In this document: one piece after another, positions 1,894 to 34,928 of the stretch
Numbering within the stretch: the stretch's first letter is position 1
How the letters are laid out: every line of letters begins with the position of its first letter
Origin: Synergistaceae bacterium
Lineage (GTDB): Bacteria; Synergistota; Synergistia; Synergistales; Synergistaceae
Length of the DNA stretch: 48,628 nt
Direction of reading: 5' to 3'
NCBI GenBank assembly: GCA_031268885.1
Contig: JAIRWR010000033.1
Span: forward strand, 1-48,628
Made by a program: the position numbers and the translations under genes
The notes under the pieces: generated by a model
Database searches by the model: none
What the model was told of the DNA's origin: nothing
Seen by the model: only the letters and a program-made list of their open reading frames with translations

Positions 1894-1899
1894 AAATCT

Positions 1900-2037
1900 T
1901 TACCTCCGCCTCTGCGACGATCTGGGTATCAGTTGACTAACCAATCTACTAGAAATTGTGATCAAATTTTTGTGTTTGGTCCCACGTTCGCGCTTACCAT
2001 CGTATTCTTCTCCGCCGATATAGGTCTCGTCGACCAT
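1900..2037 (-). pseudogene. Remnant of IS1595-family (ISXO2-like) transposase
   Basis: Read leftward from 2037, this 45-codon fragment begins MVDETYIGGEEYDGKRERG and continues TKHKNLITIS. The VDETYIGG plus basic-tract pattern is the opening of the DDE domain in IS1595-family transposases. A stop lies two codons upstream (2041-2043) and the frame ends at 1900-1902, so only about 30 residues of recognisable transposase survive. No terminal repeats are visible. It fills the gap between the radical SAM fusion and the glycosyltransferase, and its last codons now carry the ribosome site of that glycosyltransferase. The family call rests on a short motif. Confidence 0.55.
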
Positions 2038-2046
2038 GCGTTATAA

Positions 2047-3732: not shown

Positions 3733-3789
3733 TATATCTTCTTTTTCTCCTCTTCTTCGTCTGGAAAATTATTTCTCGCGTTCCATCAC

Positions 3790-4761: not shown

Positions 4762-4783
4762 GGCCCTTCTCCTTCAGCTTATT

Positions 4784-6004: not shown

Positions 6005-6136
6005 TTTAGCAGCCTCCTAAAATCCTTTGCGCGCACCGTTATTAAACAACGTCGAACATATTTCCCCTAAACGTTCAAACCTCAGGGACCAGAGGGAAGT
6101 TGAACTGTCACCATTGTCACAACCCGATCTTACGCA

Positions 6137-7378: not shown

Positions 7379-7403
7379 TCTCTTTCTTTAAAAAATTTAT
7401 GAT

Positions 7404-9097: not shown

Positions 9098-10050
9098 CGC
9101 CGACTCTCCGCTTCTCTCTTCATATCCAACATTGAGGAACGCAGCGCTTCTCTGGAATTCATGCGAGGTCTCCAACCTGCCGCGTAGATTTTCGAAAGAT
9201 CGAACCGAACCACCGGCACATCGCCTCTCCAGCCTCTGTCTCCTCCGGAGTAGTCGTATATCACGCCATCTCCGGGGAGTCCCATAAGTTCAACCGCCAG
9301 ATCGGCGATTTCCGTCACAGTGATATAGTCTCCCGTCGCCACGTTATAGACGTCAAAGGATTGCGCGGCACAGAACGCCGTGCAAAATATCGCGTCCAGG
9401 ACGTCTTCTACATGAATATACGATTTGCTCTGCGTTCCATCCCCCAGAATCTTTAATCTGGAGGAGTCTTGCGTCAATCGGCGAATAAAATCAAATCCCA
9501 CTCCATGAGTCTGCTTCGGCCCAACGACATTCGCGAAACGATAAGCTCTGGCACGAAGCTCAAACATATGGCAGTAAGCGCAAATCAGCGCTTCGCCAGC
9601 CAACTTCGACGCGCCATAAGTCGAAATCGGACGCATCGGCGAATAGGTCTCGGCTGTCTCCACTAAACCGGTATCGCCATAAACACCGCTGCCCGACGCG
9701 TAAATTAATTCCTTGGCTCCCACTCGCCGCATAGCTTCGACAACATTGTTGGTCAAGTATGTGCCTTCCCAAAAATCGACGTTGGGTTCACTCATCGCTC
9801 TGGCTATATCTGGGTTCGAAGCGAAATGCCATACTTGATCCACTGATTTCAAGGTCTCCGTCAGTAAATCAAGTTTCTTAACGTCCCCTCGAACGACGGA
9901 AAACCTTGAATCCCGGATTCCTTCTAAATGGGACTCCCTCCCTGAAGAAAAGTTATCATAGACCATTACGGAAGCCACATCTCTCTCCAACAATCTCCGT
10001 ACCGCGTGACTGCCGATAAAACCGGCTCCGCCAATTACGGCTGCGCGCAT
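9094..10050 (-). CDS. NAD-dependent sugar-nucleotide epimerase/dehydratase (extended SDR)
   Basis: This is a 318-residue extended short-chain dehydrogenase. The Rossmann motif is VIGGAGFIGSH (5-15), and the catalytic region contains YASGSGVYGD followed by YGASK with the Tyr-x3-Lys pair. The C-terminal half carries the substrate-binding FANVVGPKQTHGV and YIHVEDVLDAI stretches common in UDP-glucose 4-epimerase-like enzymes. In this operon it may epimerise or otherwise remodel the GDP-heptose made by its neighbours, or act on an independent sugar nucleotide; the sequence does not decide. It begins at an ATG at 10050, 34 bases after the transaldolase stop, and ends in an ATGA overlap with hddA. 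Confidence 0.88.
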   Translation of the reverse strand: MRAAVIGGAGFIGSHAVRRLLERDVASVMVYDNFSSGRESHLEGIRDSRFSVVRGDVKKLDLLTETLKSVDQVWHFASNPDIARAMSEPNVDFWEGTYLTNNVVEAMRRVGAKELIYASGSGVYGDTGLVETAETYSPMRPISTYGASKLAGEALICAYCHMFELRARAYRFANVVGPKQTHGVGFDFIRRLTQDSSRLKILGDGTQSKSYIHVEDVLDAIFCTAFCAAQSFDVYNVATGDYITVTEIADLAVELMGLPGDGVIYDYSGGDRGWRGDVPVVRFDLSKIYAAGWRPRMNSREALRSSMLDMKREAESRR

Positions 10051-10084
10051 GGTTTCAAACTCTCTAACAACACAAAATCTTCTT

Positions 10085-10804
10085 TCATAATTTCAAACCG
10101 GCCGCGCAAGCGTCTCGATAAAACATTTGTACTGTTTCCAAAGAATATTCCTCCAGGTTTTTATCCACCAGATTCAGCTTGGCAATCAGATCGGGAGTGA
10201 TGGTGATGATATGGCATCCCGCGTCGTCTGCCTGAAAAATATTCAACAATTCACGCGGACTAGCCCACAAAAGTTCCGCCTGAGGTTTTGCTTTCAAAAG
10301 AGCGACGCACTCGCGCATCAGCGGCATAGGGTCTCGTCCTGTATCCGCGACGCGGCCGGCAAAGACGGAGATAATTGCCGGGGTCGCGGAACAGAGAGCA
10401 AGAACCGTTTCTTCAACCTGCTTTGGAGACAGAATCGCGGTGACGTTGATTTTGATGGCATCAGCCGCCAGTCTTTCGATCAATGGACAGGAACTTATGC
10501 CTTGTGTATTGGTGATAGGAATCTTCACAAAAGCATTGGGCCCCCATGAAGCGATAACGCGGGCCTCGCGTTCCATCTCCTCGAAATCGTCCGAAAAAAC
10601 TTCGAAAGAAATAGGTAAATCTCCCGCAATGACGAGAGCCTCCCGGGCAAAAGCGTAATAATCGGCAACTCCCGATTTACGCATCAATGAAGGATTCGTT
10701 GTAAAACCCTTCACAAACGGATGACGCGCGGCAATCTCTCTCATCGACGCTACGTCCGCGCCGTCCATAAAGAGTTTAATTTTGAGTTCGTTGAGATGAG
10801 ACAT
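10085..10804 (-). CDS. tal: Transaldolase (small, FSA/TalC-like)
   Basis: The product is 239 residues from the ATG at 10804, chosen because TAAGGAGG lies directly upstream. A longer reading frame would overlap gmhB. It shows the family landmarks KLFMDGADVASM (10-21), GFTTNPSLMRKSG (33-45), the Schiff-base lysine in FVKIPITNTQG (K94) and ISVFAGRVADTGRDP. Transaldolases move a three-carbon dihydroxyacetone unit between fructose 6-phosphate and aldose phosphates, with sedoheptulose 7-phosphate as a product or substrate. Its place between gmhB and the epimerase suggests it feeds sedoheptulose 7-phosphate, the first substrate of the heptose pathway, locally. A fructose-6-phosphate aldolase activity cannot be ruled out. 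Confidence 0.88.
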   Translation of the reverse strand: MSHLNELKIKLFMDGADVASMREIAARHPFVKGFTTNPSLMRKSGVADYYAFAREALVIAGDLPISFEVFSDDFEEMEREARVIASWGPNAFVKIPITNTQGISSCPLIERLAADAIKINVTAILSPKQVEETVLALCSATPAIISVFAGRVADTGRDPMPLMRECVALLKAKPQAELLWASPRELLNIFQADDAGCHIITITPDLIAKLNLVDKNLEEYSLETVQMFYRDACAAGLKL

Positions 10805-10817
10805 GACGATTTCCTCC

Positions 10818-11399
10818 TTATGAAACAAAATTCACAAGCATTTCCACCGCATCAAACAGAGTTTGCGCTTCTAAATCAGGAGTGACCGAAGCCGCCTCCG
10901 CATGAGGACTAAAAATTCGCAATGTTCGGCATCCGGCCGCCCGCCCACAAAGAATATCCGTGTCCCTGTCTCCGACCATCCATGAATTGGACAAATCCAC
11001 CCCATGCGATGCGGCCGCGAGGCGCGGAAAGTAAGGACTGGGTTTACGCTCAAGCGAGATTCCCGAAAAATCCGAGACAACGCCTTGAGGGTGGGAATAT
11101 GAATAATAAGATTCAGTAATCTCGACTCCCGCGCCGGCGAGTAAAGCTTCAACATGTTTTGCCGTCGCGACTAAAGACTCCAGCGCGATTTTTCCCTTCG
11201 CGTAAGCACCCTGATTAGATACGATAAAAAGAAGATAACCTTTCCGCTGAAAACGCAGTAAAGCTTCCGCCGCATTAGGCAACAACTCAACGTCCCCGGG
11301 GGACATTGGAGCTTCCCATTCTTTCCAACGTTCGTAATACACATTTGCGGTAATGACTCCATCGCGATCCAGGAAAATAGCTCTCCTATGAGAAGTCAT
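10818..11399 (-). CDS. gmhB: D-glycero-D-manno-heptose-1,7-bisphosphate 7-phosphatase (HAD)
   Basis: The product is 193 residues. The ATG at 11399 is preferred over an upstream GTG at 11414 because it forms an ATGA overlap with the gmhA stop. The HAD motif I is FLDRDGV (catalytic Asp pair D11 and D13), motif II is IVSNQGAYAKG, and the late acidic motif is MVGDRDTDILCG. Family members of this size are GmhB or the HisB phosphatase domain; the adjacent gmhA and hddA decide for GmhB. It removes the 7-phosphate from heptose 1,7-bisphosphate to leave heptose 1-phosphate for HddC. The usual zinc-site cysteines of GmhB are poorly preserved (a single CG at the end of motif IV), suggesting a divergent subgroup. 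Confidence 0.85.
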   Translation of the reverse strand: MTSHRRAIFLDRDGVITANVYYERWKEWEAPMSPGDVELLPNAAEALLRFQRKGYLLFIVSNQGAYAKGKIALESLVATAKHVEALLAGAGVEITESYYSYSHPQGVVSDFSGISLERKPSPYFPRLAAASHGVDLSNSWMVGDRDTDILCGRAAGCRTLRIFSPHAEAASVTPDLEAQTLFDAVEMLVNFVS

Positions 11400-11992
11400 T
11401 TCATGGTTTCCCACTTCATATCATTGATCTTGAGCTTGGGATGGGTGGCCAGAAGATGCCAGACCACGCCTTGAAAAGCCTCGGTATGCGGCGTAACAGT
11501 CTCCGCGTCAACCGTGGGAATGACAATGCACGCATCCGCCACCCGAGCGGTATAGCCCCCATCTCTGCCCACGGCTCCCAGAACAAATGCCCCCACTTCT
11601 TTCGCGTAAACAAGCGCCTCGACGATATTGGCGCTGACCTGTTTCTCTTTATTGCCTCCTCCCACCGAAAAGACAAAAACAGCATCGCCCTTGCGGAGCC
11701 GAGAACCTTTAAGCCATTTTGAAAAAATAGATTCCCATCCATCATCATTGACGCGTGCCGTAAGTTCAGAGACGTTATCCGTTGGGGCATAAGCCTCAAA
11801 GCCGCAAATTTTACGAAAATCGTTCACCGCGTGGGTCGCGTTTCCCGCTCCGCCGCCAACTCCCAAAAAAAATAAACGCCCTTCCATCTGACGCACGAGC
11901 AAAAGAACATCTACTATCTTTTCGAACGAGAATTCGTCAAGAGATTCTATAATCTGCCCTGCCTGTTGTAAGTATTGCTTCGTGTATGACAA
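11396..11992 (-). CDS. gmhA: Sedoheptulose 7-phosphate isomerase (SIS domain)
   Basis: The product is 198 residues. The start is TTG at 11992: an in-frame stop lies directly upstream, and GGAGAGG sits 8 bases before the TTG. The SIS domain includes FLGVGGGAGNATHAVNDF and VFSVGGGNKEK, which bind the sugar phosphate, and TPHTEAFQGVVWHLL near the end. GmhA converts sedoheptulose 7-phosphate to D-glycero-D-manno-heptose 7-phosphate in the cytoplasm. It is the first gene of the leftward heptose operon and lies 74 bases from a long repeat that contains a possible promoter. The GVGGGAGN loop differs from the GNGGSA of textbook GmhA, so it belongs to a divergent branch; context supports the function. 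Confidence 0.87.
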   Translation of the reverse strand: MSYTKQYLQQAGQIIESLDEFSFEKIVDVLLLVRQMEGRLFFLGVGGGAGNATHAVNDFRKICGFEAYAPTDNVSELTARVNDDGWESIFSKWLKGSRLRKGDAVFVFSVGGGNKEKQVSANIVEALVYAKEVGAFVLGAVGRDGGYTARVADACIVIPTVDAETVTPHTEAFQGVVWHLLATHPKLKINDMKWETMK

Positions 11993-12643: not shown

Positions 12644-14509
12644 TTACCTCCGGCAAGCAAGCTGAGCTAAAGACTGGCTGATAAATCGAGATGGTCTTTG
12701 TTGTTTGTCGTCCCCCCAAGGCATGCGTTTTCCTTTCGGATATGATAAAAAACAAAGTCGTTTTGCGCGTGTAACGGCAACGTACATATTGTTCTTCTCT
12801 TGTGCCAGTGCTTCACCGCCACTATTTACAGCGCGGTAATCAGGGAATGTTCCCTCAGCCAATCCGATGATAAATACAACTTCAAATTCTAATCCCTTTG
12901 ACATATGAGCGGTCAACAGGACAACGCCAGATTCCCCATCTATTTCTTGCGTTTTGCCGAGTGAAATCGCATTACGAAACGATACCAACGATCGATTTTC
13001 ACTCGAAATATGGCTCTTGAATTTAGTCCAGTGTTTGTGCCATTCATTGATGTCTTCTTCAAGTAAATACCTATCATCATCAGATGAAGTAGACGGCATA
13101 TTTTCTTTTAGGGAACCAAGCGCTTTATCAAAGTTCAATACGCCGTCGATGGAAAGATAAGGCAATGCGGATTTCAACCACGCAAACTTGTTTTGTGATG
13201 TCAAAAGAACCTCTATTAGCTGTTTTATGTCACTAGAAATAGTATCCATAGGAAATTTTGAAGGTATCAACTTAAACAATAGCTGTCTATGAAATAAATC
13301 TAAAGGGTTCATAATTAGGCGCAATATTAAATCAAATGCTTTCATATAATCTGTTTCAAAAGAAATACCTGATCGTGTTTTCTTGTAATAAAAAGGAATT
13401 TTTCTCTCCGTGAATACACGCTCAATTTGCGAAAAGACATATTTATTTCGAGCTATAATCGCGAAATCTTCATATTTCAGATGGTTTTCAATATCCTTAT
13501 GCCCGTTAGCAAGAAGGGTTTCAAGCATTACTCGTACATTCTGGGCTTCTTCAGCTTCATTTGCGCAAGCGGAAATTGCAACTTTGCCGTCATAGAAATA
13601 CTTTGATATATCCTCTTGGCTTCCAACAAGGTTATTCGCAAATTGGATTATCTGCTTGGCAGAGCGGAAATTTTCGTCCAGCGTATACACAGTAGGGTTG
13701 AAATCCCTCACAAACGATTGTGACATATAACTACTACTTGAACCATTAAACGCATATATAGACTGATTAGCATCGCCTACCATCATAATATTACGAAAAT
13801 TTGTGCCACATAAGGCTTGAATTACTCGATACTGAGCGTTGTTCAAGTCTTGAGATTCATCTATGCAAATGTAGCGATAAACAGAGTTATACAGTCTTAC
13901 AACATCAAGGTTTTCTGCTAAAATTCGATAAGCGAAAAACAAAATGTCATCGAAGTCCATTGCATTTTGGGTTCTCAAAACATCGTTGTATTTCTGATAA
14001 ATCTCAGGGAACGAGTCTTCCACTTCACACAACTCTGGCGAAATCAAATTTCGTTTTTGTTCCGATATTATCGAAAGGCATGTAGACAAGAATGTATCCG
14101 GTTTTTGTTTCCCGCTCAATATCACCTGTAATTGGGATTCATCAGTGAAAATGCTACGCAGAATGGCAACTCTGTCGGTTTCGTTTTCAAATAATGAAAC
14201 ATCAGGACGTAGCCCAATAAGATAGCCTCTAGACTGAATGACATCAAGGCAGAAGGAATGGATTGTACCAATAGTGACACGCTCAATAGCTTCACCAACT
14301 TCGCGGTCGGTATCAAGTCGTGAACGCATTTCTTCTGCCGCCATATTGCTAAAAGTCAGCGCTAACACTTTTACGCGTTTTTTTACGGATAGCAAATGCT
14401 TAACACGCTCTGTTAGGACACGTGTCTTACCACTTCCTGGCCCTGCATTGACGAGTATTGCTCCGTCAATATGTTCAACGATTGTTTTTTGTTTGGGAGA
14501 GAGTTTCAT
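12644..14509 (-). CDS. gajB: Gabija-type antiphage helicase GajB (UvrD/Rep-like)
   Basis: This is a 621-residue superfamily 1A helicase. Motif I is AGPGSGKT (22-29), motif II is DESQDLNNAQYRVI, motif III is VGDANQSIYAFNG, motif IV is DENFRS, and LTAHMSKGLEFEVVF and YVAVTRAKR form motifs V and VI. The start at 14509 overlaps the stop of the OLD-family nuclease gene and has GGAGGAAA upstream, so the two are co-translated. An OLD/TOPRIM nuclease followed by a UvrD-like helicase is the defining arrangement of Gabija defence, in which GajB is thought to act with GajA against phage DNA. The AT-rich composition differs from the GC-rich genes to the right, as expected for a transferred defence module. 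It is longer than the roughly 500-residue GajB I remember. Confidence 0.8.
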   Translation of the reverse strand: MKLSPKQKTIVEHIDGAILVNAGPGSGKTRVLTERVKHLLSVKKRVKVLALTFSNMAAEEMRSRLDTDREVGEAIERVTIGTIHSFCLDVIQSRGYLIGLRPDVSLFENETDRVAILRSIFTDESQLQVILSGKQKPDTFLSTCLSIISEQKRNLISPELCEVEDSFPEIYQKYNDVLRTQNAMDFDDILFFAYRILAENLDVVRLYNSVYRYICIDESQDLNNAQYRVIQALCGTNFRNIMMVGDANQSIYAFNGSSSSYMSQSFVRDFNPTVYTLDENFRSAKQIIQFANNLVGSQEDISKYFYDGKVAISACANEAEEAQNVRVMLETLLANGHKDIENHLKYEDFAIIARNKYVFSQIERVFTERKIPFYYKKTRSGISFETDYMKAFDLILRLIMNPLDLFHRQLLFKLIPSKFPMDTISSDIKQLIEVLLTSQNKFAWLKSALPYLSIDGVLNFDKALGSLKENMPSTSSDDDRYLLEEDINEWHKHWTKFKSHISSENRSLVSFRNAISLGKTQEIDGESGVVLLTAHMSKGLEFEVVFIIGLAEGTFPDYRAVNSGGEALAQEKNNMYVAVTRAKRLCFLSYPKGKRMPWGDDKQQRPSRFISQSLAQLACRR

Positions 14510-16341
14510 TGCATTTCCTCCTCAGTCGCAGCTCTATTGTACCCAAGCCGATTCGCCAATACATCGAACACTTGTTTAATTTTAGGAGGTATCCGTTTAT
14601 CAACATCAGTTTCTTCCACAATTTTCCTCGCTATAGGCAATGCGAAATCCGTCTTATGTTCATGACATATATCAATCAATGCTTCTGTTTGCCCATTTTC
14701 ATGCTTATAATCACGGACGATGTCCTTCTTTCGTCTCTGACCGTCCATTTTTTGAATGTAGTTTTCAAAGAACTTATCATCTTCTTCATAGTCGCAGATG
14801 GCACTAATCATTACATCGGAATACCCTGCGTGAATGAGATACTTTTCATAGTCGTCACCATTTTCCAGAACAAACACAGTTCCCAAGGCAGCATAGTCAT
14901 CCACATTAAATATTGCTTTTACTGCCGAACTTACAGCCTTAATTGCGTCAGGTTCTCCGTCGCTAAAAATAAACCAAGGTATATCAAAATCTCTAATTAG
15001 CGAGAGGAAAGGTTGATACTTGTCTTTTCCGCCAGTATTGATAATGTTCACTCCAAGCGCAAATGGCGCGCATCCGAAATAACTTTGAAAATAAACTGGT
15101 AACGCCAATTCCTCTGTTATACCCTCACATAGAATAACAGCGGAAGCAAATAAGATATCGGCTCTTGTGTTAATAACCTCGCGAAATATCATCAAGTCAA
15201 CATTATCTTTGTTGTTACAGGCTTTGTATCGAACGGCAGAGGTTTTTCCATCACGCTTGCTGAAATAAATCGCATCAGCTAAGATTGAATGGGCAACAAT
15301 ACTGGGTGAATGGGTGCTAACTATTTTTTGCCCTGTAAAATTTGATATTTGCTCGAATAATTGTCGTTGGGCTTGAGGATGTAGATGTGCCTCCGGCTCT
15401 TCCATTGTAAGCATAATGTACTGTTCGGCTTCTTCGTCATCAACACGCAATTTTTCGTTTTGATTCTCTGTAAATGCCGCTAATGTTAAAAACGAAATCC
15501 AGCTCCGCGTCCCATATCCTTGTTGTGATATTGGAAAAGCGGCAGCAAAACCGTCTTTCATGACAATATCCATACCTTTGTTCAGATCAGAGAGTTTCCT
15601 TGCTAACGGTTCTATCTCAACTGTGCTTGACGAGGAACCAATTGTTTCACCTATTGCTGAAATCCGTTCTTTTGTTTGACTGAGAGAAGGTATACTCTCA
15701 ATAATCATTGCGTTCATAGTGCTTAGCTGTTCTTCAATATCTCTTATTTTTTCATCGGACAGATCGTAGTTGGACGTGACTCGACCGAAATACGATTTGC
15801 GATTTCGCAAATCTTGAACAATATCTCGGTTTGCATCCATATAAAAGGACTGCAATGATGTTCGTATATCATCGTTGAACGTTGTCTTTTTGGTTTCAAT
15901 CATTGCCGTGTCTATACTTTCTCCCCATTGTCTGATACAATGACGACTTAAGACATAACTATCTTTGAATGGGTCGAGCTTGATTTCTGTGCGAATCCCA
16001 ACAAAGTTTCCTTCATTGCTTGTCGTAATCCAGACATCTGTAAAAACACTTGTCCAAAAATCGGAAAACGCATTGCAAATTTTGCCTTCACAATCAATAG
16101 GTTGAAAGAGAATATCGATTACAGCTACTTTCGTTTTGTTCAGCCTCTCATTTTGAGTAACGAAAATATCATTCTCTGATATGTCTGAAGCCCCTGATAT
16201 TGCAATGTTAAGCGCCCGCAAAAAATTAGTTTTACCTGTATTATTTTGACCAATCAATAAATTCGACATCCCCAAATCTAATGACATTGATTCAATCGAG
16301 CGGTAATTACTTATACGAACTTTTGATAATAGGATTCTCAT
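14506..16341 (-). CDS. gajA: Gabija-type antiphage nuclease GajA (OLD family, ABC-ATPase + TOPRIM)
   Basis: This 611-residue protein carries an OLD-type ATPase: N-terminal RISNYRSIESMSLDLG, Walker A as GQNNTGKT (31-38), a signature/Walker B region LTMEEPEAHLHPQAQ (311-325) and the H-loop STHSPSIVAHS. A TOPRIM nuclease domain follows, with the glutamate in ILCEGITEELALPVY (403-417) and an acidic motif FSDGEPDA (near 460). A long insert with a predicted coiled coil (about 160-260) interrupts the ATPase, as is usual in GajA. Known GajA is a sequence-specific DNA nickase restrained by nucleotides and activated when phage replication depletes them. The gene opens the leftward gajA-gajB pair, with a hairpin terminator of the preceding toxin gene upstream. 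Confidence 0.82.
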   Translation of the reverse strand: MRILLSKVRISNYRSIESMSLDLGMSNLLIGQNNTGKTNFLRALNIAISGASDISENDIFVTQNERLNKTKVAVIDILFQPIDCEGKICNAFSDFWTSVFTDVWITTSNEGNFVGIRTEIKLDPFKDSYVLSRHCIRQWGESIDTAMIETKKTTFNDDIRTSLQSFYMDANRDIVQDLRNRKSYFGRVTSNYDLSDEKIRDIEEQLSTMNAMIIESIPSLSQTKERISAIGETIGSSSSTVEIEPLARKLSDLNKGMDIVMKDGFAAAFPISQQGYGTRSWISFLTLAAFTENQNEKLRVDDEEAEQYIMLTMEEPEAHLHPQAQRQLFEQISNFTGQKIVSTHSPSIVAHSILADAIYFSKRDGKTSAVRYKACNNKDNVDLMIFREVINTRADILFASAVILCEGITEELALPVYFQSYFGCAPFALGVNIINTGGKDKYQPFLSLIRDFDIPWFIFSDGEPDAIKAVSSAVKAIFNVDDYAALGTVFVLENGDDYEKYLIHAGYSDVMISAICDYEEDDKFFENYIQKMDGQRRKKDIVRDYKHENGQTEALIDICHEHKTDFALPIARKIVEETDVDKRIPPKIKQVFDVLANRLGYNRAATEEEMQ

Positions 16342-21222: not shown

Positions 21223-21374
21223 TTGATAATCCATGTTCCCTCTCCTCTGGCTCATCCAAAATCCGCTAGCGTAGTGATAGACAAATTAGTGTCTGATATA
21301 TTGAGCGTTTCATTTGACCGCAGGAGAGATTGATCTTATCATAAGCGCACAATATATGCTTGAGGTGGTTGTTT

Positions 21375-21614
21375 GTGACAAATATCGAGAAATATACCGA
21401 GTGTTTCGTCAATGCGTTCGAGCTACAGGACGAGGCTGGCGTACAGTCGCTGGAGTACCAATCCATAGAACAGTGGGATTCGGCGGGGCACATGGTGTTG
21501 ATAGCGATGCTCGAAGATTGTTTTGAAATCATGCTCGAAACAGATGACATAATAGACTTCTCCTCGTTTGAAAAAGGCAGGGAGATTATAAAAAAGTACG
21601 AAGTGGACCTGTAG
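21375..21614 (+). CDS. Acyl carrier protein
   Basis: The product is 79 residues from a GTG at 21375, which has GAGGTGG six bases upstream; an earlier TTG at 21360 lacks such a site. The sequence around residue 36, IEQWDSAGHMVLIAMLEDCF, is the ACP signature, with S36 as the phosphopantetheine attachment serine. The helix pattern and acidic character (EDCFEIMLETDDIIDF) also fit. It would carry an acyl or aminoacyl thioester in the cytoplasm and is the first gene of an eight-gene operon. The divergence from fatty-acid-synthesis ACP (WDSAGHM instead of DSLD) points to a dedicated carrier in a secondary pathway. Confidence 0.88.
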   Translation: MTNIEKYTECFVNAFELQDEAGVQSLEYQSIEQWDSAGHMVLIAMLEDCFEIMLETDDIIDFSSFEKGREIIKKYEVDL

Positions 21615-21625
21615 GTTTTAAGGAG

Positions 21626-22369
21626 ATGTTACTTAGGGGTAAAACCGCCGTCATCACTGGGTCTTTGCAGGGCATCGGCAAGGCGGCGCTTGAAATTTTC
21701 GCAAGGAACGGCGCGGACATATTTGCTTGCTGTCAGCGCGAGGATGAACAGTTTGCGGAGTATATCTCGGACTTATCCGGTAACTGCGGGGTATCCATAA
21801 CGCCGGTGTGTTTCGACCTTCTCGACGAAGATGCTGTGAGGGAAGGGGCCAAATTTATCCAGAAATCCAAAAGATCGATCGATATCCTGATCAATATCGC
21901 CGGGGCTAACTTCGACGCTCTCTTTCACATGGTGACGATGGAGCAGTTGAAACGTACATTTGCCATAAATTTCTTCTCGCAGATACTCTTTACCCAGTAT
22001 ATCACCAGGCTAATGCTCAAACAGGGCAGCGGTAGCGTTGTAAATATTTCAAGCATCACCGCGCTGGACGGCAATCCAGGACAGTTGTCCTACGCTTCAT
22101 CAAAGGCCGCGCTGATAGCCGCGACAAAAACCATGTCTGAAGAGCTGGCGCCAAAAGGAATTAGGGTCAACGCCCTGGCTCCGGGAGTGATTAAGACCGC
22201 GATGACTGACGCCATGCCGGAGGATATCAGGTCTCGCATGATCGCGAGAAGCGAGCTGAAGCGCGTTGGACTTCCGGACGAGGTTGCGGGAGCAATACTC
22301 TATCTGGCGTCGGATCTGTCGAAGTACGTCACCGGTCAAGTGATCCGGGTTGACGGCGGCATTGGATAG
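21626..22369 (+). CDS. FabG-like short-chain reductase 1
   Basis: This is a 247-residue classical SDR. The NAD(P) motif is TGSLQGIG (11-18), followed by LINIAG, the catalytic serine in VVNISSITALDGN, the Tyr-x3-Lys in YASSK, and a C-terminal YVTGQVIRVDGG. It is most like 3-oxoacyl-ACP reductases, which reduce a beta-keto thioester to a hydroxy group with NADPH. The ATG at 21626 directly abuts AAGGAG with no spacer, an unusual arrangement that may lower translation; the N-terminus fits the family, so the start is kept. It lies 11 bases after the ACP gene and is followed by a paralogous reductase, so two distinct keto groups or two stereochemistries may be handled. Confidence 0.88.
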   Translation: MLLRGKTAVITGSLQGIGKAALEIFARNGADIFACCQREDEQFAEYISDLSGNCGVSITPVCFDLLDEDAVREGAKFIQKSKRSIDILINIAGANFDALFHMVTMEQLKRTFAINFFSQILFTQYITRLMLKQGSGSVVNISSITALDGNPGQLSYASSKAALIAATKTMSEELAPKGIRVNALAPGVIKTAMTDAMPEDIRSRMIARSELKRVGLPDEVAGAILYLASDLSKYVTGQVIRVDGGIG

Positions 22370-22385
22370 ACGAGGGGGCGCGGAT

Positions 22386-23129
22386 ATGCTGTTGAAGGGT
22401 AAGAATGCGATTATAACCGGCACAAGGAGGGGTATTGGCCGGGCTATGATCAATACGTTCGCCGCCAATGGGGCAAACATATACGCTCACGCTCGGAGCG
22501 ACTCGCCTGAATTTATCGAGGAGACGCGTTTGATTGCCGACAGATATGGAGTTGAGATATGGCCAGTATTCTTCGACATGAGGGACGGCGCCGCAATGAA
22601 GGCGTTCGCGAAGAGGATAATGTCAGAAAGACGTTCGGTCGATGTTTTGGTTAACAACGCCGGAATCACTCACAACGCTCTCTTTCATATGACGCCGGAG
22701 GTTATACTAAGAGAGCAGTTTGAGGTTAATTTTTTTTCGATGTTTTTCCTGACCCAATATATATCAAAGTTTATGTCGAAGCGGAAATCCGGCAGCATCA
22801 TAAACATAGCTTCAACCGCCGGAGAGAATGGCAACCCCGGAAAGTCCGCGTACGGCGCGTCTAAAGCCGCCGTCATCGCGATGACGAAGTCAATCGCCGC
22901 CGAGCTTGGAGAGTACGGTGTGCGCGCTAACTGCATAGCGCCAGGCGTGACGGAGACGGATATGCTGTCAACCCTTCCCTCGGCTGTTCTTGAAGAGACG
23001 AAAAACGGCACGGATCTGAGGCGCGTTGGTTTGCCGTCGGAAATTGCCGACACGGCTCTGTTTCTCGCCTCAGACCTGTCGAGCTACATAACGGGACAGG
23101 TTATCCGAGTGGATGGCGGACTAAAATGA
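22386..23129 (+). CDS. FabG-like short-chain reductase 2
   Basis: The product is 247 residues from the ATG at 22386, preceded by GAGGGGG. A longer frame would overlap the previous gene. The motifs are TGTRRGIGRA, LVNNAGITHNALF, IINIASTAGENGNPG, YGASK and YITGQVIRVDGG. It is a clear paralogue of the preceding reductase (shared NALF/DALFHM, NPG and YITGQVIRVDGG stretches), so the pair arose by tandem duplication. The RRGIG loop suggests NADPH preference. It would reduce a keto group on an ACP-bound or free intermediate. Its stop overlaps the start of the transketolase N-subunit as ATGA. Confidence 0.88.
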   Translation: MLLKGKNAIITGTRRGIGRAMINTFAANGANIYAHARSDSPEFIEETRLIADRYGVEIWPVFFDMRDGAAMKAFAKRIMSERRSVDVLVNNAGITHNALFHMTPEVILREQFEVNFFSMFFLTQYISKFMSKRKSGSIINIASTAGENGNPGKSAYGASKAAVIAMTKSIAAELGEYGVRANCIAPGVTETDMLSTLPSAVLEETKNGTDLRRVGLPSEIADTALFLASDLSSYITGQVIRVDGGLK

Positions 23130-23956
23130 GAGACGGCGATTTTAACAGAGCTCGCATCGAAAGTATGGCCGGAGCAATGAGACGCAGCATCCTAGATATG
23201 TCCTACAAGTGCGGTAGCGGGGTACATCTTGGCGGAGGGCTTTCCGTGGTGGAGATATTGGCCGTCCTTTACGGCGCTGTCATGAATTTTGATCCAAGCG
23301 CCCCGGCCGATCCGAACAGGGATCGTTTCATCATGAGCAAGGGACACGGGGTGTTAGGGCTTTACGCGGCTCTGGCCCAAGTTGGATTTTTTTCTCCGGA
23401 TCTGCTTGAAACATTTCAGCAAAACGGAACGGATCTCGCCTCACTGACGGTTATGAATATAAATCTTGGCATCGAGTCCTCAAATGGCAGTTTGGGACAA
23501 GGACTGTCCATGGCAGTCGGTATCGCGCTTCACGCCAGATTACGCGGGAAAACTTTCAATACTTACGTTCTGCTCGGAAACGGGGAGTGCAACGAGGGCG
23601 AGGTGTGGGAAGCTGTCATGTCCGCCTCGCAGTTCAAGCTCGATAACCTGATTGCGATTGTAGACGACAACTCGATGCAGTCTGACGGCGAGAGCAGAGG
23701 AATAATGGACATGTCCTCCCTGTCTCGAAAATTTGACGCGTTTGGCTGGGATACTATGTTGGTAGACGGGCACGATGTCTCCAGCCTGTATCGCGGCATC
23801 GCGCAAAGAACGGCTGATGGACGCCCAAAAGCCGTCATTGCCAGAACAGTAAAGGGCAAAGGGGTGTCTTTTGTAGAGAACAGCAGGGACTGGCATCATA
23901 ACAGATTGACGAAATCCATGTACGAACAAGCCCTTGCCGAGATTGGGGTGTCGTAA
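23126..23956 (+). CDS. Transketolase, N-terminal subunit
   Basis: This 276-residue protein corresponds to the thiamine-diphosphate-binding half of transketolase. It shows GGGLSVVEILAVLYG (30-44), DRFIMSKGHGVLGLYAAL with the conserved histidine, GSLGQGLSMAVGIA, and the ThDP/metal motif GNGECNEGEVWEA, with NGE in place of the usual DGE. The split form is common in bacteria and archaea. The enzyme moves a two-carbon ketol unit from a ketose phosphate to an aldehyde acceptor. Genes for aldehyde formation (LuxE- and LuxC-like) lie in the same operon, which suggests a non-sugar acceptor here. It starts in an ATGA overlap with the reductase. Confidence 0.9.
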   Translation: MRDGDFNRARIESMAGAMRRSILDMSYKCGSGVHLGGGLSVVEILAVLYGAVMNFDPSAPADPNRDRFIMSKGHGVLGLYAALAQVGFFSPDLLETFQQNGTDLASLTVMNINLGIESSNGSLGQGLSMAVGIALHARLRGKTFNTYVLLGNGECNEGEVWEAVMSASQFKLDNLIAIVDDNSMQSDGESRGIMDMSSLSRKFDAFGWDTMLVDGHDVSSLYRGIAQRTADGRPKAVIARTVKGKGVSFVENSRDWHHNRLTKSMYEQALAEIGVS

Positions 23957-23959
23957 TAT

Positions 23960-24931
23960 ATGGCTGACATAACGCCGGCAAACAGTAGGATCTGGTCTAA
24001 AATGGGTTCTCGCGCTGTTTTTGGGGCGGCATTGCTTGAGCTCGCGTCGCGGAGGGATGATATATACGTCTTATCGGCCGACCTCATTATATCGTCTGGA
24101 CTGGACCGTTTTAGCAAGGCATATCCGGACAGATGTTTCAACGTAGGGATAGCCGAACAGAATTTAATAGGGGTAGCCGCGGGAATGGCGCATGACGGCG
24201 CAACCGTTTTCGCGACATCATTCGCGCCGTTTATCTCCATGCGAGCGGGAGAACAGATACGCGTGAATCTAGGATGCATGGGGCTGAACGTAAAGGCTGT
24301 TGGCATAAGCAGCGGACTCTCGATAGGGCATTTCGGCAATTCACATTATGGCATCGAGGACATGAGCGTGACGCGCTCCATACCGAATATCACTCTTCTC
24401 TGTCCTGCCGACGGGGCGGAGATATTCAAGGTGGTATTCGCGGCGGCGGATCTGAAAGGTCCCGTATACATCAGGCTTACGGGCGGAGTCAACAACCCTG
24501 TCGTTTACGGCTGCGATTACGAATTTGTGATTGGTAAATCCATAAGACTCCGTGAAGGTGATGATCTTACCGTCATAACAAATGGCACAATGGTTTATCA
24601 GAGCGTTAAAGCCGCCGAAATTCTGCAGGGCAACGGCATATCGGCATCTGTTGTCAATATGCACACGGTAAAACCCCTCGATACAGCCGCGGTTGACGAG
24701 GCCGCATCAAGAGGGCCGGTCGTTACTGTCGAGGAACACAGCGTTATCGGCGGTCTGGGGAGCGCTGTCGCCGAACGCAAGTCTACGTTGAAGAATACTT
24801 TTCCTCAATTATTCATCGGGCTTCCGGATAGCTACGGCAAGCCAGGGGATTATGCGTATCTGCTGGAGAAATATGGCCTGACGGGAGAGCTTATCGCGAA
24901 AAGGATCGAAAAATTTTATCGGGGTGTTTAA
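23960..24931 (+). CDS. Transketolase, C-terminal subunit
   Basis: The product is 323 residues, covering the pyrimidine-binding and C-terminal domains. The catalytic glutamate lies in FNVGIAEQNLIGVAAGMAHDG. FATSFAPFISMRAGEQIRV and HFGNSHYGIEDMSVTRSIP follow, and the C-terminal domain has VVTVEEHSVIGGLGSAVAE. It would pair with the N-subunit encoded just upstream. Together they form a complete but split transketolase of normal total size. A housekeeping role in the pentose phosphate pathway is possible, but the tight placement among acyl-activating genes argues for a dedicated biosynthetic use. Confidence 0.9.
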   Translation: MADITPANSRIWSKMGSRAVFGAALLELASRRDDIYVLSADLIISSGLDRFSKAYPDRCFNVGIAEQNLIGVAAGMAHDGATVFATSFAPFISMRAGEQIRVNLGCMGLNVKAVGISSGLSIGHFGNSHYGIEDMSVTRSIPNITLLCPADGAEIFKVVFAAADLKGPVYIRLTGGVNNPVVYGCDYEFVIGKSIRLREGDDLTVITNGTMVYQSVKAAEILQGNGISASVVNMHTVKPLDTAAVDEAASRGPVVTVEEHSVIGGLGSAVAERKSTLKNTFPQLFIGLPDSYGKPGDYAYLLEKYGLTGELIAKRIEKFYRGV

Positions 24932-24981
24932 ATGTGTCGTTGGTTATTGTTTCTGTATTTTTTGAACAAGGATAAGCTCCG

Positions 24982-26403
24982 ATGGGCGAAGTGTTTTTCC
25001 ATTCGTTAGACCGGTTTGGAGGCAGGATGGCCCTCATAACTGAGTCCGGGGACACGTTTACATACTCCGAACTGTTGAGCGGCGCGAACAATCTGTCGTC
25101 AGCGATCGAGTCTCGCAGCGTAATTTTTCAAGTGTGCCGCAACGACGCGGAGTCCATAGCGGCTTATGTGGGTTTTCTGCGGCGCGGCGCTGTGCCGCTT
25201 CTCATAAACGATTCCATAAATGACGAGGCGTATCTCAATCTCAAGGACCTGTATCATCCGTCGTATGTCTTTCTGCCTGATGATTCCTCACTGGAAGTCG
25301 ACTCGTCCGCGCATGGGCTTGGCGGTTATCGTCTCGTCAAGACCGAATTTGAGCGCGATTACGACATTAACCCGGAACTGGCCCTGTTGCTGACAACATC
25401 CGGCAGCACGGGGAGCCCTAAACTTGTTCGGCAGTCCTATAGGAATATATCGAGCAACACCAGTTCCATTGTGGAGTATCTGAATATATTGAGCGGCGAC
25501 AGGGCGATAACGACCCTTCCGATGAGCTACACGTTTGGACTTTCCATAATCAACACACACCTTTATGCTGGAGCGGCATTGATCTTGACGAACAGGACGC
25601 TGATGGAGAGGGAGTTTTGGAATTCGCTCAGGAGCGGCAAGGCTACAACGTTCGGCGGGGTCCCGTATACCTACGAGATGCTGAAAAAACTGCGCTTCTG
25701 GCGCATGGAGACGCCGTCGTTGAGGTATCTGACTCAGGCGGGGGGCAAGCTGGTCCCTGAGATGTGCGCCGAGTTCATTGACATCTGCCGCGACAGAGGT
25801 ATGAGGTTCATAGTAATGTACGGCCAGACGGAGGCAACGGCTCGCATGAGCTATCTGCCGTGGGAGAGCGCTCGGTCGAAGCCCGGCAGCATCGGGGTGG
25901 CGATACCTGGCGGCGAGTTTTCACTGAAAGGCGATGACGGGAGTATCATAGATGAACCAGGCGTGACTGGCGAGCTGATCTACAAAGGTGACAATGTGAC
26001 GCTTGGCTACGCGGAGAACCGCTTTGACCTCGCGCGCGGGGACGAGCGGGGCGGGACGCTTGAGACCGGGGACATGGCTTATTCTGACGAGGACGGATTT
26101 TACTATGTGGTTGGGAGGAAGAGGCGCTTCCTCAAGGTGTTCGGCAACCGCGTCAACCTTGACGATATCGAGCGGCTGCTCAAAAAAACAGGCGCCGACT
26201 GCGCGTGCGGCGGAGTCGATGACGCGCTGAAGATATACGCCGTTTCGGACGATATCGCAGCCTTGAAGCGGTACGTCGCGCGGCGTACCGGCATAAGCCC
26301 AGCCGGTTTTTCCGTCGTGAAAGCGAATGAGATCCCGCGGAGTTCGTCCGGAAAGGTGCTTTACTCTGAACTAGAGGGTGGGCGGATAAATGTTTCAGTT
26401 TGA
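24982..26403 (+). CDS. AMP-forming acyl/aryl ligase (adenylation domain)
   Basis: The 473-residue protein is an ANL-superfamily ligase. Its motifs are the ATP loop LLTTSGSTGSPKLVRQSY (137-154), MYGQTEATARMSYLP, TGELIYKGDNVTLGY, LETGDMAYSDEDGFYYVVGRKRRFLKVFGNRV and the C-terminal catalytic lysine in PRSSSGKVLYSEL. It activates a carboxylic acid as acyl-AMP and could load it onto the ACP encoded by the operon, or onto CoA. It is short for a CoA ligase and close to free-standing adenylation enzymes. AAGGA lies 9 bases before the ATG. It ends overlapping the LuxE-like gene by 14 bases. The acid cannot be named; no carrier domain is fused. Confidence 0.88.
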   Translation: MGEVFFHSLDRFGGRMALITESGDTFTYSELLSGANNLSSAIESRSVIFQVCRNDAESIAAYVGFLRRGAVPLLINDSINDEAYLNLKDLYHPSYVFLPDDSSLEVDSSAHGLGGYRLVKTEFERDYDINPELALLLTTSGSTGSPKLVRQSYRNISSNTSSIVEYLNILSGDRAITTLPMSYTFGLSIINTHLYAGAALILTNRTLMEREFWNSLRSGKATTFGGVPYTYEMLKKLRFWRMETPSLRYLTQAGGKLVPEMCAEFIDICRDRGMRFIVMYGQTEATARMSYLPWESARSKPGSIGVAIPGGEFSLKGDDGSIIDEPGVTGELIYKGDNVTLGYAENRFDLARGDERGGTLETGDMAYSDEDGFYYVVGRKRRFLKVFGNRVNLDDIERLLKKTGADCACGGVDDALKIYAVSDDIAALKRYVARRTGISPAGFSVVKANEIPRSSSGKVLYSELEGGRINVSV

Positions 26404-27469
26404 TGAAATAGCGTCGCTGCCCCCATTCTCGCTGGGGGAGAGGGACAAGAATTCGCTCTTTGAGAGAGCCATGGCGGATATGACACTGTTTCACTTCGAG
26501 CGTTGCGAGGACTATAGAAAGATCGTTCGAGGGCTTGGATTTGACACGAAATCGCTACGCGGTGTTTCTGACTTTCCGTTTTTGCCGGTAAGGTTGTTTA
26601 AATCCCACGAGTTGCTGAGCGTTGACAGGCGTGAAGTTGTGAAGACCATGACCTCGTCCGGGACCACCGGGCAGAGCGTGTCGAAGATATTCCTCGATCG
26701 CGAGACGTCGTCGCGTCAGACCAAGGCGCTTGCCAGGATAACGTCCGATTTCATTGGAGGGCATCGTCTACCGATGCTCGTCGTCGATTCGAGCGAACTG
26801 CTGAAGGACCGCAAAATGTTCTCCGCGCGCGGCGCTGGGATATTGGGCTTTTCGATGCTGGGGCGAGACGTCACATATGCCCTGGATGGGGAGATGAGGC
26901 TGAATCTGGATGCCATAGAGGCGTTCCTGGACCGCCACAAAGGCGGGAACGTACTGCTGTTCGGCTTCACGTTCATGATATGGGAGTACTTTTACAAGGC
27001 TCTGGCCGAGTCCGGCAGGCGATTACCCATAGATGGCGGCGTCCTCATACATGGCGGCGGATGGAAGAAGTTACAGGCTTCGGCTGTGGATCCCGCCAGC
27101 TTTGCGGAGGCGCTGCGTTCGGTCTGCGGAGTCTCGCGAGTCCACAACTACTACGGCATGGTCGAGCAGACCGGCTCCATATTCATGGAGTGCGAGGAGG
27201 GACGGCTGCACTGTTCCATATTCTCCGACGTCATAGTGAGGCGTCACATGGATTTTTTGCCCTGCCCGACCGGGGATGAGGGGCTGATACAGACGATATC
27301 CCTATTGCCCTGGAGTTATCCCGGCCACAGCATCCTGACTGAGGATATAGGCCGCGTAACTGGCGTCGATGACTGTCCATGCGGCAGGCTCGGGCGTACC
27401 TTTGCGGTAAAGGGCCGTATCGCGCGGGCCGAGGCCAGAGGGTGCGGCGATACCTATGAAAAAAGATAG
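26390..27469 (+). CDS. LuxE-like acyl-protein synthetase
   Basis: This 359-residue protein belongs to the LuxE acyl-protein synthetase/PaaK-related group. The ATP-binding motif is MTSSGTTGQSVSKI (87-100), and the family landmarks FHFERCEDYRKI, FLPVRLFKSHEL and HNYYGMVEQTGSIF are visible. In luminous bacteria LuxE activates a fatty acid with ATP and holds it on a cysteine near its C-terminus before handing it to LuxC; here C352 of 359 is a possible equivalent. Its coding region overlaps the ligase upstream (14 bp) and the LuxC-like gene downstream (14 bp), so the three proteins are probably made together. No luciferase genes are present, so the aldehyde must serve another end. Confidence 0.88.
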   Translation: MFQFDEIASLPPFSLGERDKNSLFERAMADMTLFHFERCEDYRKIVRGLGFDTKSLRGVSDFPFLPVRLFKSHELLSVDRREVVKTMTSSGTTGQSVSKIFLDRETSSRQTKALARITSDFIGGHRLPMLVVDSSELLKDRKMFSARGAGILGFSMLGRDVTYALDGEMRLNLDAIEAFLDRHKGGNVLLFGFTFMIWEYFYKALAESGRRLPIDGGVLIHGGGWKKLQASAVDPASFAEALRSVCGVSRVHNYYGMVEQTGSIFMECEEGRLHCSIFSDVIVRRHMDFLPCPTGDEGLIQTISLLPWSYPGHSILTEDIGRVTGVDDCPCGRLGRTFAVKGRIARAEARGCGDTYEKR

Positions 27470-28634
27470 CGTGATCTATCTGACGGGCAGCGGTATTCCC
27501 GACGCAAGGCCGCTCAAGCCGTATTCCGACGAGGCTTGTTCGTTCTTGGCCGCGCTGTCGGATCTCTTGTCGCGGCACAGGAATCCGCCCGACGTCGCGA
27601 CGTTAGCGTTTTTCTGCCGCAGGGCGAACATTGCGCGGCTGAAGTCGGACTTTAGTTCGCCGGACGTCAGGCTAGGCAGGGGGACGGTGTTCCACATCGC
27701 GCCGTCCAATATTCCAATCAACTTCGCGTTCTCCCTAGTATTTGGCCTGTTGTCCGGCAACTCCAACGTAGTCCGCGTCCCCTCCAAAGCATGGCCGCAG
27801 GTTGATATAGTGTGCGGCGCGATAAATTCGCTGCTGGAGAGGCCGGAATTCTCGGAGTTCGCTCATCGTATAGCGATGGTCCGCTATGAGCGTGACGACG
27901 ATGTGACTCGGTTTTTCTCCGAGCGCTGTGACGCCCGTATCGTATGGGGTGGTGACGAGACGGTTCGAAGGATAAGGAGTATACCGATTCCGCCGAGGGC
28001 CGTCGAGGTATCGTTCGCGGACCGTTACTCCTTCTGCGTCATCAGCGAGGAGTCCGTAATGAAGCTTGATAACGTCGCGGTGGCGCGTCTGGCGAATAAT
28101 TTTTACAACGACACATATCTGGTGGATCAGAACGCGTGTTCGTCGCCGAGCCTGATCATGTGGCTGACGGGCCCGCGTAGAGCGCCGGGGGCCAGGGAGA
28201 GATTCTGGAGTGCCGTCTGGCTCCGCGCGTGCGAATACGACCTGGCGCCGATCCACGCGGTGGACAAATACACTGAGCTCTGTTGCTGTCTCTCGCGCGT
28301 CGATGACGTCGAATCGGTCGTGCGGCACGGAAATTTGATTTACAGGCTGAAGCTTGCGTCGTTGAACGGAGTCGAGGGTCTTTGCGGAAAGTTCGGATTT
28401 TTCTTTGAATACGAGTCCGACAACATCGACGTAATCGCGTCGCATGTCACGAGCAAGTGGCAGACGTTGACTTATTTCGGTGTTGAAAAGCCTGAAATAT
28501 CGAGATTTGTGGCTGATAATTTTCTGAGGGGCATCGACAGAATCGTCCCGGTGGGTTCCGCTCTGGATATAAGCGTTATGTGGGATGGGTTTGACATCGT
28601 GAGGACGCTGTCGAGAATAGTTGAGATCAAGTGA
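27456..28634 (+). CDS. LuxC-like acyl-CoA/acyl-protein reductase
   Basis: This 392-residue LuxC-family reductase is related to aldehyde dehydrogenases. It carries GRGTVFHIAPSNIPINFAF (75-93), the SGNSNVVRVPSK coenzyme region (100-111) and the catalytic cysteine in YLVDQNACSSPSL (C228). LuxC reduces a fatty acyl thioester to the aldehyde with NADPH after transfer from LuxE. Genes luxE-luxC always work as a pair in the lux system. The aldehyde could be the acceptor for the transketolase in this operon. The gene ends the operon; after it a 144-base gap holds a promoter for the glycerate kinase gene. It is of normal length and shows no missing key residue. Confidence 0.9.
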   Translation: MKKDSVIYLTGSGIPDARPLKPYSDEACSFLAALSDLLSRHRNPPDVATLAFFCRRANIARLKSDFSSPDVRLGRGTVFHIAPSNIPINFAFSLVFGLLSGNSNVVRVPSKAWPQVDIVCGAINSLLERPEFSEFAHRIAMVRYERDDDVTRFFSERCDARIVWGGDETVRRIRSIPIPPRAVEVSFADRYSFCVISEESVMKLDNVAVARLANNFYNDTYLVDQNACSSPSLIMWLTGPRRAPGARERFWSAVWLRACEYDLAPIHAVDKYTELCCCLSRVDDVESVVRHGNLIYRLKLASLNGVEGLCGKFGFFFEYESDNIDVIASHVTSKWQTLTYFGVEKPEISRFVADNFLRGIDRIVPVGSALDISVMWDGFDIVRTLSRIVEIK

Positions 28635-33651: not shown

Positions 33652-33791
33652 TCGCGCCAGTCTGTGGAAGCAGCTTGTCTCTGTTTCCACTGCTTGTTGT
33701 GAGCGGTGATCATTGGCAAGTCATCACCAAACGGAACGAAACTCAGCGATCTTGAGCTTATTTTCATAATAGTGCTGGAGGTGTTTTGACG

Positions 33792-34928
33792 ATGGAAGCG
33801 GGGTTGATTCCGTCGTTCGATCTGAAGCGGAATTACGCGAGGATCGAGGGGGAGATAATGGATGCGGTCGAGAGGGTTCTCTCGTCGCAGTGTTTTATAA
33901 TGGGACCGGAGGTCTCGGAATTCGAGCGCGAGGCTGCCCTCTATCTGGAGACGCCTCGGACTGTCGCGTGCGCTTCTGGCACGGACGCGCTGTCGCTTGC
34001 GCTGATGGCCCTTGATCTTGGTCCCGGCGACGAGGTTGTCACGACGCCATTCTCTTTTTTCGCTACGGCAGGCTGCATAGCTCGACTGGGAGCGAGGCCC
34101 GTCTTCGCGGATGTCGAACCTGGCACGTACAACGTGTCGATGGAGCGAGTGCTTGACGTGCTGACCCCTCGTACAAAAGCCGTCATCCCAGTTCACCTCT
34201 TCGGCCAGCTCTGCGGGCTGGAGGAGATTACTCCGGAGCTTACGCGGAGGGGCATCCCGATCATAGAGGACTGTGCTCAGTCATTTGGAGCGCATAGGAT
34301 GCACGAGGGCAGGATAATGAGATCGGGCTCATGGGGCCGGTTCGGCTGTTTCTCCTTTTTCCCGACCAAGAACCTTGGCGCGTATGGGGACGCTGGCATG
34401 ATCTGCTGCAAAGAGCTTGGGGATTCGGAGAGGATCTCGCGCTTACGGGTTCATGGCGCGGCGGAGACTTATATCCATGGAGAATTGGGGATCAACAGCA
34501 GACTGGATGCCATTCAGGCCGCCATTCTGAGGGTTCGCCTGAGGCACGTGGAGACGTGGATCGAGGAGAGGCGTGAGGCCGCGCGCCGCTATGACCTCAT
34601 GTTCGCCGAGCGTGGGATCCAGGATGTTGTGACGCCGCCTGTCGAGGATGCCGGCAACAGGCACACCTATCACCAGTATGTCATTCGGGCGAAGGATAGA
34701 GACGCCCTCCAGAGTTCTCTCTCCAACCGGGGTATTGTGACGCGCGTCTATTATCCAATGGCTCTTCACGTTCAGCCCTGCATGAAATTTGCCGGCTATA
34801 AGATGGGAGACATGCCCGTGACGGAGCGGCTGACGGAGGAGGTACTGGCGCTCCCGATGTTTCCAGAGATTCTCCCGGAGGAGCAGGAGCGGGTCGTATC
34901 CGCTATTTCGGATTTTTACAGAGGGTAG
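33792..34928 (+). CDS. DegT/DnrJ/EryC1/StrS aminotransferase
   Basis: The product is 378 residues from the ATG at 33792, with GGAGG about 10 bases upstream; an in-frame TTG two codons earlier is nearer to that site. PLP-fold marks include ACASGTDALSLALMALDLG, TTPFSFFATAGCI, PVHLFGQLCGLEEI, IIEDCAQSFGA and the Schiff-base lysine in FFPTKNLGAYGDAGMI. The family transaminates keto-sugar nucleotides, using glutamate, for amino sugars in surface glycans and antibiotics. No sugar-nucleotide dehydratase is adjacent; the nearest glycan genes are over 20 kb away, so it probably serves that locus from a distance or another modified sugar. The call at family level is firm and the substrate is unknown. 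Confidence 0.93.
   Translation: MEAGLIPSFDLKRNYARIEGEIMDAVERVLSSQCFIMGPEVSEFEREAALYLETPRTVACASGTDALSLALMALDLGPGDEVVTTPFSFFATAGCIARLGARPVFADVEPGTYNVSMERVLDVLTPRTKAVIPVHLFGQLCGLEEITPELTRRGIPIIEDCAQSFGAHRMHEGRIMRSGSWGRFGCFSFFPTKNLGAYGDAGMICCKELGDSERISRLRVHGAAETYIHGELGINSRLDAIQAAILRVRLRHVETWIEERREAARRYDLMFAERGIQDVVTPPVEDAGNRHTYHQYVIRAKDRDALQSSLSNRGIVTRVYYPMALHVQPCMKFAGYKMGDMPVTERLTEEVLALPMFPEILPEEQERVVSAISDFYRG

Follow-up and report, generated by a model that had tools for sequence, protein, structure and literature searches.

Why should a split transketolase be encoded together with LuxE- and LuxC-like enzymes and a dedicated acyl carrier protein (ACP)? The question is raised by an operon in a 48,628-nucleotide stretch of DNA (contig JAIRWR010000033.1 of assembly GCA_031268885.1; hereafter the window) from a gut-type Synergistaceae bacterium, the source assembly of which comprises 2.44 Mb in 136 contigs. 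At positions 21375–28634, eight co-directional genes on the + strand, separated by no more than 50 bp or overlapping slightly in our survey of open reading frames (ORFs), encode in order an ACP, two FabG-like short-chain dehydrogenases (SDRs), the N- and C-terminal halves of a transketolase (TktN and TktC), an ANL-superfamily acid ligase, a LuxE-like synthetase, and a LuxC-like reductase. A preliminary description of the locus proposed that these proteins form an ACP-using pathway around a transketolase with an unusual substrate, listed a glycan substituent among the possible products, and held that no pathway with this set could be named. We find that the set recurs around a constant core across about ten phyla and that its transketolase has lost canonical substrate anchors, and we propose that its product is probably an acyl group destined for a glycan.

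Gene content and recurrence of the operon

The operon and its family assignments are borne out by the ORF survey, by Pfam matches for seven of the eight proteins, and by the recurrence of the gene order. The ACP has no match in Pfam or NCBIfam, but its Asp-Ser motif is invariant in all 90 aligned operon ACPs, the protein is 48–83% identical to the ACPs of related loci, and the GTG at 21375 is a sensible start. The closest solved structure for both transketolase halves is the split transketolase of Carboxydothermus hydrogenoformans, which has the same two-chain design (best PDB match of TktN, the N chain 6yak, E 9e-59; TktC, 6yaj, E 6e-70), and the conserved GxGE...N region is present in TktN. 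The ANL motifs and a C-terminal Lys458 are conserved across 89 aligned sequences. LuxE and LuxC each correspond to one of the two kinds of chain in PDB 7xc6, and the expected cysteines line up; the RGC-D[TS] motif of LuxE is found in 91 of 96 relatives and the DQxACx[AS]P motif of LuxC in 89 of 93. The next gene, a glycerate kinase at 28779, was considered as a further member and rejected; since its position next to the operon is not conserved among relatives, we place the end of the operon at LuxC.

A LuxE profile search of a species-genome collection returned at least 592 encoding stretches, of which the best 80 were kept; adding Synergistota genomes and plasmid matches brought the set to 101 loci in about ten phyla, among which three loci (L051, L052, and L119) are second copies of others (L027, L032, and L035, respectively). 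Weak LuxC matches in other Synergistota families (frames of 870–1281 amino acids (aa), ~30% identity over ~160 residues), which resemble other large dehydrogenases, and distant LuxE matches on Priestia and Streptomyces plasmids (~26% identity) were left out. LuxE was the bait, so its presence is no evidence; the neighboring genes are. Sixty-one loci are well covered, having 6 kb or more of sequence on either side; of these 61, the ANL ligase is encoded in 61, LuxC and ACP in 56 each, an SDR in 45, and TktN and TktC in 31. ACP, ANL ligase, LuxE, and LuxC are the constant core and the transketolase is an optional partner; because not every copy of the module has one, the function of the core does not require it. 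The identical eight-gene order is present in Synergistaceae relatives (L027/L051 and L036), one of which, L051, belongs to the nearest named relative, a Synergistaceae metagenome-assembled genome, and is 75–86% identical to the window operon, and in Kosakonia oryzendophytica (L078). A form with one SDR occurs in Bacteroidota (L097 and L116; likewise L100, with extra genes), and six loci have a LuxE–LuxC fusion. The grouping is not due to chance, because the eight-gene order recurs and in 31 of the 61 loci TktN and TktC are no more than 9 kb from LuxE, against about 1% expected by a rough estimate from genome size. The conserved co-occurrence by which the preliminary description proposed to check its interpretation is thus present.

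The same set and order have also been published (2015–2020) from the fliA–fliC interval of Dickeya zeae EC1, EC2, ZJU1202, DZ2Q, MS1, and others, with homologs in Pantoea. Compared by families and relative order, the eight genes are alike, and the window operon belongs to this already documented cluster type; the Dickeya copy, however, lies inside a flagellar locus with acetyltransferase (maa), aminotransferase (vioA), and glycosyltransferase genes, whereas the window copy is alone and in another phylum. Flagellin glycosylation islands of Aeromonas group II and enterobacteria encode an ACP, a 3-oxoacyl-ACP reductase, an AMP-dependent synthetase, LuxE, and LuxC, with no transketolase mentioned and a lipid-sugar component suggested (PMC7874193, PMC4875605); the ACP/ANL/LuxE/LuxC core is shared with the window operon. 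The preliminary interpretation thus stands as to families, operon, and an ACP-using pathway, but not as to the claim that no pathway with this set could be named.

The transketolase and its counterparts

Human transketolase served as the reference for reading the residues of 47 TktC sequences associated with the core, a number that includes three repeat copies. The catalytic Glu366 is retained in all 47, whereas His416 and Asp424 are replaced in all 47, Arg474 is absent in 46 (a position beside a gap, where the alignment is less certain), and a histidine occupies human position 428 in 46. We take human H416, D424, and R474 to be E. coli H461, D469, and R520, and to contact the substrate phosphate and the acceptor C2 hydroxyl. 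The operon enzyme shares with the pentose-phosphate transketolase the thiamine diphosphate (ThDP) site and the catalytic glutamate but not these anchors, and it lacks the histidine and aspartate that the Carboxydothermus enzyme keeps. As controls we took 18 Synergistota split TktC proteins whose short flanks carry no core genes, and 13 of them retain both His and Asp; where core or SDR genes adjoin, both are lost in 11 of 11. The same genome encodes a separate 664-aa transketolase with all these residues, as well as DXS and another split transketolase. Because the substrate anchors are lost and the canonical 664-aa enzyme is present in the same genome, we take the operon transketolase, judging from its residues, to be spare and specialized, and the expectation of an unusual substrate is supported.

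Tandem double TktN/TktC pairs occur in L062, L063, and L093 with differing active-site residues (e.g., C,F/Y versus R,S at human 318/345), which suggests two transketolases with different substrates. In L168, L169, L171, L173, and L175, Synergistota split transketolases with short flanks free of core genes are likewise missing the canonical His, Asp, or both, and there may be other specialized transketolases besides the core-associated ones.

The thiamine-dependent partner in the 61 loci is a transketolase in 31, an acetolactate synthase (ALS)-like enzyme in 13, neither in 17, and both in none; the chance of zero overlap is 2e-5 under independence, a figure that is too small given that the loci are related. 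The ALS-like ThDP enzyme belongs to a second recurrent block beside the core, recognized by neighbor clustering and Pfam/NCBIfam, with a FabZ-like, a NeuB-like, and a metallo-beta-lactamase-fold protein. Examples of this block are L071 (4578–8612), L099, L107, L110, and L118; it is found among relatives of Rhizobium, in Symbiopectobacterium and Gastranaerophilales, and in other bacteria. On a LuxE tree, a quick build in which many inner branches are weak, partner type changes 33 times against a shuffled mean of 34, so there is no clustering, and the well-supported branches force at least 12 changes for the transketolase and at least 10 for ALS. We read this as a partner often exchanged around a stable core. 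The linked partners (transketolase, ALS-like, and NeuB-like) are families that form C–C bonds, consistent with use of an aldehyde.

The 17 loci in which the core has no thiamine partner indicate that it can work alone, and they lend themselves to a different account: the core would make and load the acyl group while the transketolase acts separately, for example to produce a ketose or branched sugar for the same glycan, the two being neighbors because both feed one glycan. ALS-like enzymes of the YerE type make branched sugars in other pathways, which counts for this account. The transketolase genes, however, often lie inside the operon between the SDR/ACP and ANL genes, with TktN-TktC-ANL-LuxE-LuxC contiguous in 10 loci, and Pfam reveals no nucleotide-sugar gene in the operon; we consider a separate transketolase unlikely.

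Proposed route and its glycan context

The best-understood analogs are tetronate in Vibrio cholerae and an acyl group in Flavobacterium psychrophilum. We take the V. cholerae O1 tetronate genes to encode an ACP, an ANL ligase, and a LuxE/LuxC-type reductase, with the acyl product, a 2,4-dihydroxybutanoyl group, going onto an amino sugar, and to include no transketolase and an alcohol dehydrogenase in place of the SDRs. Compared by families, the window operon has the same combination of ACP, ANL, and LuxE/LuxC; by Pfam it has SDRs only and no RfbM-type alcohol dehydrogenase. Tetronate acylates perosamine in V. cholerae, and its genes are VC0248–VC0252 (rfbKLMN), the WbeL ligase having 471 aa (PMC3441752). 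In the O-antigen R-group of F. psychrophilum, a hydroxyacyl group is made by an ACP and a reductase reserved for it, with ketoacyl synthases instead of a transketolase or LuxE/LuxC, and a PglD homolog is predicted to carry the acyl group from the ACP to a 4-amino sugar (PMC6519341). We favor the view that the operon pathway would be an elaborated version of tetronate synthesis.

The presence of two acid-activating enzymes, LuxE and the ANL ligase, suggests that a carboxyl is activated twice in the pathway, once to allow reduction to an aldehyde and once to charge the ACP. We infer the substrate, step order, product, and final acceptor as follows. LuxE would activate one of the carboxyls of a small acid, for which analogy suggests a dicarboxylate like malate or succinate; LuxC would reduce the activated group to an aldehyde, to which the divergent split transketolase would add a C2 ketol unit. 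One or both SDRs would reduce the resulting ketone, the ANL ligase would adenylate the remaining carboxyl and load the finished acid on the ACP, and a PglD/NeuD-type hexapeptide acyltransferase, encoded elsewhere, would transfer the acyl group to a sugar. The core alone would yield an omega-hydroxy acid, as in tetronate; with the transketolase the acid would gain two carbons and hydroxyls. The operon would then be a cassette in which an unusual short-chain acyl group, probably polyhydroxylated, is assembled on a dedicated ACP and used to N- or O-acylate an amino sugar of a glycan on the surface or on flagellin. This scheme, with this order of steps, we hold in even balance. For its parts our confidence differs: the product is probably an ACP-bound acyl substituent of a glycan, while action of the transketolase on the LuxC aldehyde has at best an even chance. 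The dedicated ACP-using pathway of the preliminary description is retained in this scheme.

The transketolase could be tied to the ACP in another manner, by making a glycolyl unit that is passed to the ACP as a hydroxyacetyl starter and elaborated by the SDRs and LuxE/LuxC. NapB/NapD-type pathways are the precedent, and the ThDP enzyme and the ACP do share one operon; Pfam, however, finds neither a lipoyl/E2 component nor a ketosynthase among the eight proteins, and we regard this route as very improbable. A ketosynthase is a mark of type II fatty acid or polyketide synthesis, which the operon does not share in this respect; KASIII is encoded in 13 of 61 other loci.

The destination of the product is suggested by the neighborhoods of relatives. 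In Kosakonia (L078) the order is PglD-ACP-SDR-SDR-TktN-TktC-ANL-LuxE-LuxC, with FliA/FliZ-type genes upstream and a DegT aminotransferase, large glycosyltransferases, and a methyltransferase downstream; in Deinococcus the core lies among EpsG-family and glycosyltransferase genes, and in Rhizobium it is accompanied by a transketolase, an acyltransferase, a glycosyltransferase, and DegT. DegT is encoded in 26 of the 61 loci and PglD/NeuD-like hexapeptide transferases in 15. The PglD-type acyltransferase and DegT neighbors favor an ACP-loaded product whose acceptor is an amino sugar in a glycan of the surface or of flagellin, and among the products first considered the glycan substituent is preferred.

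The published annotations of these genes are to fatty acid biosynthesis, and the LuxE/LuxC families handle long-chain acids in bioluminescence, so that LuxE and LuxC might instead reduce long-chain fatty acids for a membrane lipid or wax to which the transketolase adds a polar head. Against this stand the glycan genes of the relatives and the operon LuxC itself, a distant, shorter Lux relative (392 versus 477 aa): family membership and catalytic Cys positions are shared with the Lux fatty acid reductase (7xc6), but similarity is low, and the ORF and Pfam survey finds no LuxD thioesterase or luxAB luciferase in the operon. We judge the lipid route rather improbable. The Dickeya authors considered in 2015 that the set was unlikely to serve flagellar biogenesis, and a 2020 paper put forward flagellin glycosylation with a lipid-sugar. 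A secondary metabolite that diffuses away and has no link to glycans would suit the isolation of the operon, which has no directly adjoining glycan genes in the window or in L027; next to it, however, we saw no gene for export, regulation, or resistance, and in the named relatives the same set or core sits in flagellar or polysaccharide loci. This we consider highly unlikely.

Several points weigh against the glycan cassette we propose. The transketolase might act on an intermediate of a separate pathway rather than on the LuxC aldehyde, and the residue changes in TktC could be an adaptation to an unusual donor, not to an unusual acceptor. The invariant ANL motifs, including Arg288, do not reveal the acid substrate, and the literature that we searched yielded no biochemistry or product structure for any transketolase-bearing locus. 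The ORF and Pfam survey finds neither a flagellar nor an acyltransferase gene adjoining the operon in the window, and the two PglD-like genes of the same genome are on other contigs, one within a nonulosonate-type locus. A flagellar location is not needed for the proposed chemistry.

Surroundings of the operon and wider meaning

The window operon stands alone, ~9 kb from a polysaccharide cluster (Table 1). In the relatives that we examined, nothing closely matching the downstream sugar aminotransferase frame lies next to the operon. A complete Gabija defense pair is also present. Elsewhere in the genome there are four strong flagellin matches on other contigs. In L142 (G000:C27, 4039–15429), a flagellin frame of 1265 aa is followed by genes for a dehydratase, a NeuC-type epimerase, Gfo/Idh/MocA, a CMP-transferase, an SDR, NeuB, PglD, and a CBS-nucleotidyltransferase, a legionaminic-acid-type set that suggests a glycosylated flagellin; a GmrSD-type restriction endonuclease is encoded nearby (943–2595, - strand).

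Table 1. Features of the window, with positions, strand, and the evidence for each
Feature	Position	Strand	Evidence or remark
Low-GC surface polysaccharide cluster	757–11992	-	Glycosyltransferases, UDP-glucose dehydrogenase, radical SAM protein; heptose-type set (SIS, HAD, GHMP kinase, nucleotidyltransferase, epimerase, transaldolase)
Gabija defense pair	12644–16341	-	Complete
GajB-like UvrD helicase	12644–14509	-	Best PADLOC match E 2e-218
GajA-like OLD-family nuclease	14506–16341	-	Best PADLOC match E 7e-191
Promoter-like site TTGACC-17-TATCAT	21314–21342	+	33 bp upstream of ACP start; consensus scan 10/12; weak evidence
ACP	21375–21614	+	Asp-Ser phosphopantetheine site in QWDSAGHM
FabG-like SDR 1	21626–22369	+	PF13561 (adh_short_C2), E 1.6e-56
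FabG-like SDR 2	22383–23129	+	PF13561 (adh_short_C2), E 1e-59
TktN, split transketolase N-terminal half (ThDP-binding)	23126–23956	+	PF00456 (Transketolase_N), E 3.7e-40
TktC, split transketolase C-terminal half	23960–24931	+	PF02779 (Transket_pyr) and PF02780 (Transketolase_C)
ANL-superfamily acid ligase (AMP-binding)	24982–26403	+	PF00501, E 1.6e-44
LuxE-like acyl-protein synthetase	26390–27469	+	PF04443, E 1.4e-48; C-terminal Cys352
LuxC-like acyl-thioester reductase	27456–28634	+	PF05893, E 1.8e-24; Cys228 in DQNACSSP
DegT/DnrJ/EryC1/StrS-like sugar aminotransferase frame	33786–34928	+	From translation; 5 kb downstream of operon, amid housekeeping genes

The core/partner logic across phyla and the altered transketolase site are absent from the literature that we searched. 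Tentatively, and with somewhat more doubt than belief, we posit a mix-and-match system across phyla in which an aldehyde made by LuxE and LuxC would be extended by interchangeable transketolase- or ALS-type carboligases, loaded on the ACP, and used to decorate surface sugars, the transketolase representing a new functional class that acts on non-phosphorylated acceptors. If this is true, a gene set of flagellar and polysaccharide loci in many phyla, so far annotated only as fatty acid or sugar biosynthesis, would gain a testable function, and there would be a class of transketolase dedicated to glycan decoration, a possible biocatalyst for aldehydes. The surface antigens and flagella that carry such decorations are recognized by phages and hosts.

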